From Siphonodentalium dalli (taxonomy: Eukaryota > Mollusca > Scaphopoda > Gadilida > Siphonodentaliidae), in contig CP136065.1 in NCBI GenBank assembly GCA_032622095.1, positions 96,231,343-96,295,342 of the forward strand: a stretch of DNA of 64,000 bases. The letters run 5' to 3'. Numbering within the stretch: position 1 is the stretch's first letter; every line of letters starts with the position of its first letter. Shown here one piece after another: positions 6,312 through 8,196 of this stretch. The notes below the pieces were generated by a model. It was not told the origin of the DNA and did no database searches. It saw only the letters and a list, made by a program, of their open reading frames with translations. The translations under genes and the position numbers were made by a program.

Positions 6312-6378
6312 CATGTGCGTCTCTATAGTAGGCATGTGTGACACTCCGAAACCTCTCTTGACCAGCAGTATCCCATAT
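6312..6378 (-). CDS. rab26: Rab26 switch II exon, version b (canonical)
   Basis: The minus strand reads [20 protein letters not shown] followed by A and H, 22 codons plus one G. It is flanked by a TTCTAG acceptor and a GTATAC donor. DTAGQ is the G3 motif; its Gln supports GTP hydrolysis, and the following helix is switch II, which contacts GEFs, GAPs and effectors. The sequence is identical to human RAB26/RAB37 over nearly its whole length, including the family-specific VTHAYYRDAH. It is the downstream member of a pair with 8130-8196, separated by 1751 nt. Length (67 nt) and phase (0 in, 1 out) equal those of the other version, so it is a mutually exclusive alternative. Confidence 0.95.
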
Positions 6379-7433
6379 CTAGAATAGAAGCACCACTAAT
6401 TAATTAATACAAATCCCATAACCTCAGCCCTAGACAGCCCTAGAAGCATATCCAATATGGAAGACAGCCCCAGGATATAATGAAGAGATCCACACATTTT
6501 CAGTGAATATGAGACTTATGATTATTATAAGCAGTCAATCATGTAACAAAACACGCCTTCAACCGAGTGGTGAGTTCAGATAATTGGGATTTATTGTTAC
6601 TTTTAACAGCTATGGTCATATCATGCCATTAAGAGGAGACCTAAATTCAGACTGCGGCATTCATTTTTAACTCCTACCACTTTAAGAAGACTTATATTCT
6701 ACTTCAGGCAGTATTACTGTGATCCTATTCTTCACGACATGCTGGAAAATGTCCCAAATCATAGACCATAAATACAATGTATGTGCCTCCATCGTGGGGG
6801 AGGCATTAACTACAGTAAATGCAAAGCTAAATATAAATTTCCAACTTTATGAACTGTCATTGATAATGTACATATCTCAAAAGAATTAGTATTAGTAATA
6901 CAATGCCAAAACAAGTCATATATGCTATGAGCCTAAGATGCACTATTTCTGTAGCCGTTAACTCTACAAAATATTAATAAGTGGCATCTTTGAACACTAT
7001 GTGTACATGTATACTGTGGCAGGTTGTTTCATTACAGACTGAATGGAATCATTTGATTGCTACAGTAAAATTAATACACGGAATAAAAGGCAGACAAAAG
7101 GATGCAACGTTGATCTGACATTTCACCAGCATAATAAACTGCAGACAAAATTGTCCCTTTGATAAACCATGGCTGATATTTTCATGGACAGACAGAAAAC
7201 CATTATTTTTAGATCAAGAAAGAAGGAAAACTTTAGAATGGAAAATTAAAACAATGTCGTTCATTCAGACCTGATCACCCATGGCACACGGTTACAGTCT
7301 AAAATTAGAGGTATAAAAAGTGGCCATTTTCCCCCTCCAGCTGTTTTTAAATTGCATGAAGATCAAATGGGAAATTATGAAAAAGAATGGGTGGTTTCTG
7401 AGCTATATCAGCGAGTTCAGTCGGAATTATTCA
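6379..7433. other. Intron between the two switch II exons, part
   Basis: No coding signal or repeat family was recognised. A TTAATTAATTAG-containing pyrimidine stretch precedes the acceptor of the version b exon. Confidence 0.5.
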
Positions 7434-7878
7434 CAAGTCTGGAAATAGTGTGTCTGACATTGGACAGAATGAGGTCCCCAGAGGGTGAATTTAGTGATGC
7501 TATCCCGCACATTGGGTTAGCTTCACCAAATACACCCCCTGTGAGCCTCATTCTGCTTAGGCCTCAACTGCTATTGGAGACGTAGGATCAGATTTAAGTT
7601 CCCCAGTTGAAGTTGTTGATGTTAACCCATTAGTCACCTCAATTATGCATTTTATCTACTGCAAATTAGGGGATATAGAGACAGAACAGATGTGAAAAAA
7701 TAACTAAAAACAATGTTAATCTGAGACTATAGATACTACCCAGAAGATGAGGCTTAAGCAGAATGAGATCCCCAGAGGGTAAATTTGGTGATGCTAGCCC
7801 GCTGTGCGAGGTAGCTTCACCAAATTTACCCTCTGGTGACCACATTCTACAAATGTCACACACTATTTCAAGGCTTGA
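7434..7878. mobile_element. Family C element, full copy between the switch II exons
   Basis: The terminal inverted repeat is CAAGTCTGGAAATAGTGTG against CACACTATTTCAAGGCTTG. Each end carries its own hairpin (about 7470-7560 and 7750-7860) made of GTCCCCAGAGGGTGAATTTA and its complement. The middle has a CTAATTTGC/TCACCTCAATTATGCAT block shared with 20820-20960. Confidence 0.85.
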
Positions 7879-8129
7879 ATATTCCATGTAGGTAAGTTTT
7901 GATAGAACTCCTCCCAACTTACATGTATATGTACATAATTTGGATGTTAAAACAAGTTCATTGTGTTAACAAGAACATATAAATGACCAAATATTACAGC
8001 CTGTCTGACGTGGTCCTGCGCCGAATATGACCAAATGTGTGGGATCTCTTCATGAAATCACTGGGGCTGTCTTATTAGTAATTCCAGAACCAATGATATA
8101 TACAGCACATCCTTCACAGGATAACATAC

Positions 8130-8196
8130 CATTAGCATCGCGATAATATGCTCGAGTTATGCTGCGAAAACGCTCCTGACCGGCAGTGTCCCAAAT
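8130..8196 (-). CDS. rab26: Rab26 switch II exon, version a (Rab4/Rab14-like helix)
   Basis: The minus strand reads [20 protein letters not shown] followed by A and N, 22 codons plus one G. The acceptor is CTTCAG and the donor GTATGT. Against version b it changes V to I, H to R and H to N, all within or just after switch II. The ITRAYYR pattern resembles Rab2/Rab4/Rab14-type helices. About 20 of 67 bases differ, and 13 of the 16 changed codons are synonymous, which points to long-term selection on both copies rather than a fresh or dead duplicate. The catalytic Gln is intact. It lies 9235 nt downstream of the 14-codon exon. Confidence 0.93.

Follow-up and report, generated by a model that had tools for sequence, protein, structure and literature searches.

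The minus strand of the window, a 64,000-nt stretch of the Siphonodentalium dalli genome (2.227 Gb in 9 contigs), carries part of a Rab26/37 gene, comprising a P-loop/switch I exon, a constitutive 42-nt exon and two exons, A and B, that each encode the switch II segment (Table 1). Four further exons (C to F) lie outside the window and were found by a protein search of the same genome and the adjoining stretches, and no first exons turned up in a scan of the sequence before the P-loop exon. The spliced frame is complete for the G motifs, running from the P-loop to GNKCD and ETSAK and then to a Cys-Cys C-terminus (GCCR). The encoded protein contains a Ras domain (Pfam Ras, 1.7e-26 and 2.7e-26), and its best match among the fetched homologs is a scallop protein with 87% identity over 189 aa. 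In a PDB comparison, the nearest solved relative is Rab26 (2g6b, E 8.3e-41), followed by Rab8A (3.2e-27); the Rab26 identity proposed by the first-pass annotation thus holds, and the gene reads as a mollusc-like Rab26/37.

Table 1. Features of the Rab26/37 gene and its surroundings. Positions are those of the window (CP136065.1, 96231343-96295342) unless marked as contig positions.
Feature	Position	Strand	Remarks
Other P-loop exon type, upstream	contig 96393515-96393405	-	111 nt, 37 residues
P2, P-loop/switch I exon, Rab26 type	25874..25984	-	111 nt, phase 0; splice sites ttttgtag / gtgagt
Constitutive 42-nt exon	17432..17473	-	NKIVEVDGTKVKLQ; phase 0 at its end
Exon A, switch II copy	8130..8196	-	67 nt, phase 0 to 1, 22 residues
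Predicted hairpin over exon A 5' splice site	8087..8139	-	from fold
Predicted stem arm 1	8019..8079	-	begins 50 nt past exon A
Predicted stem arm 2	6451..6516	-	finishes 72 nt short of exon B
Exon B, switch II copy	6312..6378	-	67 nt, phase 0 to 1, 22 residues
Exon C	contig 96227087-96227035	-	53 nt
Exon D	contig 96225932-96225810	-	123 nt
Exon E	contig 96220891-96220815	-	77 nt
Exon F	contig 96215159-96215060	-	100 nt, includes stop
Large inverted repeat	33593-38590		arms ~1.7 kb, parts up to 99% identical; spacer ~1.7 kb; 139-aa open frame per arm
Minisatellite	51148-52299		44 bp, ~26 copies; open frame >120 codons
Dispersed palindromic family around CCCCAGAGGGT	7434-7877, 5827-5983, 11993-12133, 20647-21113, 13514-13914, 59466-59902

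The P2 exon encodes CLQVRF, with a Gln at a site where none of 228 homologs has one and where Leu, Met or a similar residue is usual; this Gln could be genuine or could stem from a base error. The contig carries the region around the other P-loop exon twice (96393000-96394000 and 96507600-96508600), ~115 kb apart and with 97% identity, as a result of either a recent duplication or unmerged haplotypes. The window also contains a large inverted repeat, a minisatellite and a dispersed palindromic family.

Exons A and B are neighbouring homologous exons of equal length and phase, each with its own splice sites (AG/GT borders at both), and the intron between them is 1751 nt long. The first-pass annotation had described them as two 67-nt exons with proper splice sites and identical phase, 1.75 kb apart, and the coordinates, borders, translations and upstream junction end at 17432 all agree with that description. 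Its further statement, that about 20 of the 67 bases differ while only three residues do (V/I, H/R and H/N), was borne out by counting, with 20 base differences and 3 residue differences. In particular, 16 of the 22 codons differ, 13 of them silently and 3 with a change of residue, such that A has Ile-Arg-Asn where B has Val-His-His, in and just after switch II. The dN/dS comparison of the two copies that had been proposed gave a dN of 0.114 (NG86) and no estimate of dS, for which a value of -1 was returned and taken as saturation. The balance of 13 silent to 3 residue-changing codons suggests that both copies have been selected as protein, under purifying selection, and the combination of many silent changes with few residue changes indicates that the duplication is old.

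Messages that contain A only or B only each encode 190 residues from the P-loop exon to ...AAGCCR and a stop codon. In contrast, a message with both exons reaches a stop codon 18 residues past A, inside B, and a message without either one reaches a stop codon 33 residues past the 42-nt exon, in agreement with the earlier claim that including both or neither shifts the frame. Such early ends would also be expected if one copy acted as a poison or decoy exon to reduce expression, yet the A-only and B-only messages are fully open and relatives have records of full-length A-type and B-type proteins, making this reading very improbable. It is extremely improbable that A and B belong to separate genes or reflect a duplication in the assembly: the doubled P-loop exon region demonstrates that duplicates exist in the assembly, but A and B differ at nearly a third of their bases, they stand in one row of introns, and A-type and B-type records elsewhere share a longest contig of equal size (Liolophura P0195 and P0204). 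At the level of exon sequence and reading frame, the claim that A and B supply a single Rab26/37 gene with alternative switch II segments, and are mutually exclusive by design, is confirmed.

The homolog set was assembled from three protein searches, with the best 120 matches taken from each, and comprises 228 distinct proteins beyond the two window peptides; the counts describe these top lists and not a sample. A Rab26/37 switch II pattern occurs in 226 of the 228 listed proteins, the remaining 2 being other Rabs. One switch II type is present in 225 of them, and parts of both switch II exons are present in a single Mytilus edulis record (P0013). When P0013 is counted twice, the 227 patterns divide into 55 of the A type, whose middle site is Arg or Lys, and 172 of the B type, where it is His or Asn.

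Moreover, 16 chosen record pairs were compared from the 42-nt exon to the C-terminus, with N-termini excluded. Nine pairs, from eight species of oysters, mussels, scallop and chiton, differ at exactly I/V, R/H and N/H, and the Aplysia pair differs at the same three positions with I/M in place of I/V. The pairs from Babylonia, Haliotis asinina, Haliotis rubra and Lingula differ at R/H and the last position only, the Littorina pair differs at two positions and in its C-terminus, and the octopus pair, which combines two species, has zero differences (Lingula belongs to the brachiopods, Liolophura to the chitons). Public records already hold A-type and B-type isoforms of one gene in oysters, mussels, scallop, chiton, gastropods and Lingula. 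For example, the oyster proteins of A type and B type lie on ~2.5 kb contigs with the source 'lgn' (P0097, 51 contigs; P0142, 4), which we take to be assembled transcripts. The comparison across animals, which the first-pass annotation had suggested for dating the duplication, thus finds the same contrast in bivalves, a chiton, gastropods and the brachiopod Lingula and agrees with an old duplication. The recurrence of this residue contrast in other molluscs and Lingula argues that the A/B pair of Siphonodentalium dalli is more than chance, and we would expect with strong confidence that both exons are in use in this species.

Among the matches listed, cephalopod records (Octopus and Argonauta) have VTNAYYRDAH only, while heterodont clams (Mercenaria, Dreissena, Mya and Ruditapes) and Capitella have the hybrid VTHAYYRDAN only; these single or hybrid motifs suggest that the pair is lost or unrecorded in cephalopods, heterodont clams and Capitella. 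The annelid Owenia has an A-type record and no B-type record among the matches listed, and the vertebrate records listed have VTHAYYRDAQ/H or ITHAYYRDAQ only.

Further, the records combine two P-loop types (P1 and P2) with the two switch II types. All four combinations occur among the 228 listed proteins (P1A, 19; P1B, 40; P2A, 35; P2B, 67), and Mytilus edulis has each of them (P0177, P0153, P0102 and P0135), with longest contigs of equal size. The rest of the list consists of 59 proteins with both P-loop exons in tandem, the mixed record P0013 and, without a P-loop pattern, 5 B-type proteins and 2 other Rabs. The two types of P-loop exon are common to vertebrate, arthropod and mollusc records, and in the records viewed the N-termini differ between them, so that the P-loop choice probably goes with the use of alternative first exons. 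A possible, if rather doubtful, extension is that the lophotrochozoan Rab26/37 is a two-by-two GTPase, where a P-loop/switch I exon chosen through the promoter and a switch II exon chosen under the control of RNA structure would yield four Rabs with different partner sets, an arrangement kept since before the split of molluscs and brachiopods. The 59 tandem records (P0003-P0088 and P0109, mainly arthropod and vertebrate Rab37) all have a B-type switch II; because 111 nt preserves the frame, they reflect either an artefact of gene modelling or a protein with a double P-loop.

Switch II is the meeting place of Rabs with their GEFs, GAPs and effectors. The first-pass annotation had placed the A-type helix closer to Rab4 and Rab14, a claim that fared only in part. 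When exon A and its flanks are compared with PDB entries, the order of matches is Rab26, Rab30 (RSITQSYYRSAN), Rab43, Rab4, Sec4, Rab39B and Rab14; the best match outside Rab26 is therefore Rab30, which also has the Ile and Asn of exon A, and the Arg, presumably a Rab4/14-like residue, is what stands of the claim. The Rab4/Rab14 likeness is weak in this comparison.

By analogy with the human RAB6A/RAB6A' pair, it is reasonably probable that the three-residue swap would alter the affinity for GEFs, GAPs or effectors, and one gene would then probably make two switches with different partners. It has also to be considered that the exons are mutually exclusive while their proteins are functionally equal, the copies having been kept for expression reasons or by chance, given that the difference is limited to three residues and leaves the core residues intact. 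We regard functional equality as unlikely, because the contrasts of Arg versus His and of Asn/Gln versus His have been kept in bivalves, chiton, gastropods and Lingula despite silent changes at 13 of the 22 codons. A three-residue exon swap in switch II, whose contrast persists across several classes of mollusc and in a brachiopod, amounts to a natural mutagenesis experiment on Rab specificity, and work on the Rab26/Rab37 of oysters, mussels and Aplysia must ask which isoform is concerned.

Two RNA structures predicted by fold calculations stand out. In the first, arms 1 and 2 would form a stem of 51 pairs with a free energy of -63.1 kcal/mol, where, over 538 windows between the 42-nt exon and exon C, neither arm has a better partner than the other (next best, -44.1 and -42.6) and where none of 1000 shuffles is as strong. 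The mean arm-pairing probability in the whole-region fold is, however, only 0.60. A single-query search finds the arm pair, with one partner at 50 bits; a window-wide batch BLAST listing of low-copy inverted pairs omitted it, and no rank was taken from that listing. In the second, a hairpin would cover the 5' splice site of exon A with an energy of -18.4, compared to -9.2 (sd 2.4) for shuffled sequences, none of which is as strong (0 of 300). Consistent with this hairpin, the mean unpaired probability is 0.00 at the exon A donor versus 0.39-0.69 across six further donors in the gene. In a longer fold, the acceptors of A and B are largely paired as well, indicating that masking is not unique to the donor of A.

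The intronic inverted repeat may instead consist of old transposon ends or be due to chance, with exclusivity resulting from frame loss and ordinary splicing factors, and on balance this is somewhat probable. The intron contains repeats, namely a member of the palindromic family (7434-7877) and a dispersed repeat with dozens of copies (~6561-6780), and if a transposon had inserted into a short intron, its ends would now lie at the arm positions. Other segments of the window also pair equally strongly, the strength of the predicted stem being equalled or exceeded by 11 of 624 pairs of real segments and by 7 of 4000 drawn at random. A transposon origin is, however, at odds with single-arm queries of the 2.2 Gb genome, in which each arm matches only itself (diverged copies would escape such a query), and with a search by a 986-nt query (40 of 418 candidates scored), in which none of the 42 other matches reaches arm 2, their starts lying at query position 117 at least. 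By eye, no target-site duplication is seen at the arm ends.

Three other routes to exclusion were considered and rejected. A Dscam-type docking/selector model is out because no competing second partner was found for either arm, and exclusion through too short an intron is out at the present length of 1751 nt. Incompatibility between U2 and U12 splice sites is out by eye, as both exons look U2-type, with gtatgt and gtatac donors and CAG/TAG acceptors.

Overall, the best explanation, which we consider very likely, is that an ancient tandem exon duplication gave rise to A and B as mutually exclusive exons of one Rab26/37 gene. The inclusion of one of them per mRNA would produce two Rabs that are three residues apart in or just after switch II. 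In the proposed mechanism, the hairpin would keep the exon A donor closed until a factor opens it, while the 51-bp stem would pull the donor side of A to the acceptor side of B yet bar their joining, comparable to the FGFR2 element. RNA structure is accordingly a hypothesis for how the A/B choice may be enforced, and we only tentatively suggest, from the predicted folds, that the donor hairpin and the stem help exclusivity. Messages with both exons or neither would be out of frame, and the loss of frame and decay of such wrong messages is a likely backstop.

The first-pass annotation knew of no description of this exon pair. No paper describing the Rab26/37 switch II exon pair was found in the open-licence literature, among the matches listed, and to that extent its statement stands; however, automated NCBI records carry both isoforms, such that the pair is partly annotated already. 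As to its putative RNA structure, the double-stranded element of FGFR2 has both arms in the intron between exons IIIb and IIIc. A study by Muh in 2002 reportedly concerned the regulation of these two mutually exclusive exons by a double-stranded element. The arm pair of Rab26/37 would similarly be double-stranded and beside mutually exclusive exons; its stem is predicted from one genome, where a stable stem with both arms inside the inter-exon intron is found in silico. A search of the open-licence literature for the FGFR2 IAS2/ISAR stem found no paper. Dscam-type systems, as described in parts of PMC6071210 and PMC11802352, have long-range intronic pairing of a docking site with selectors beside mutually exclusive exons, unlike the Rab26/37 arms, each of which has a single best partner.

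The searched passages of PMC5740500 and PMC9741552 contain no mention of RAB6A or RAB37. Human RAB37 has differing N-terminal segments with tissue-specific use, as reported in PMC9714508. We infer that these N-terminal forms correspond to the same P-loop exon types; the RAB37 choice would then concern P-loop/switch I, unlike the switch II choice between A and B.

The closest precedent is human RAB6A/RAB6A', which was reportedly studied by Echard in 2000. When Rab6 (...SYIRDSTVA) is aligned to Rab26 (...AYYRDAHAL), Thr87 of Rab6A falls on the H/N position; we take Thr87 to be one of the three RAB6A/RAB6A' sites and to govern Rabkinesin-6 binding, and the exons behind the two forms to be duplicates. 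Like A and B, RAB6A and RAB6A' are two splice forms of one Rab gene with a three-residue difference (parts of PMC7561474 and PMC9745180), and the Rab26/37 pair is a parallel case in a second Rab. The two systems differ in their Rab subfamily, in their independent lineages and in the residues exchanged; in Rab26/37, the switch II helix itself contains the Arg/His and Ile/Val sites, and the A/B pair comes on top of alternative P-loop exons. RAB6A/RAB6A' indicates that changes of such size can matter, and convergent use in a second Rab subfamily would mark a tuning site.
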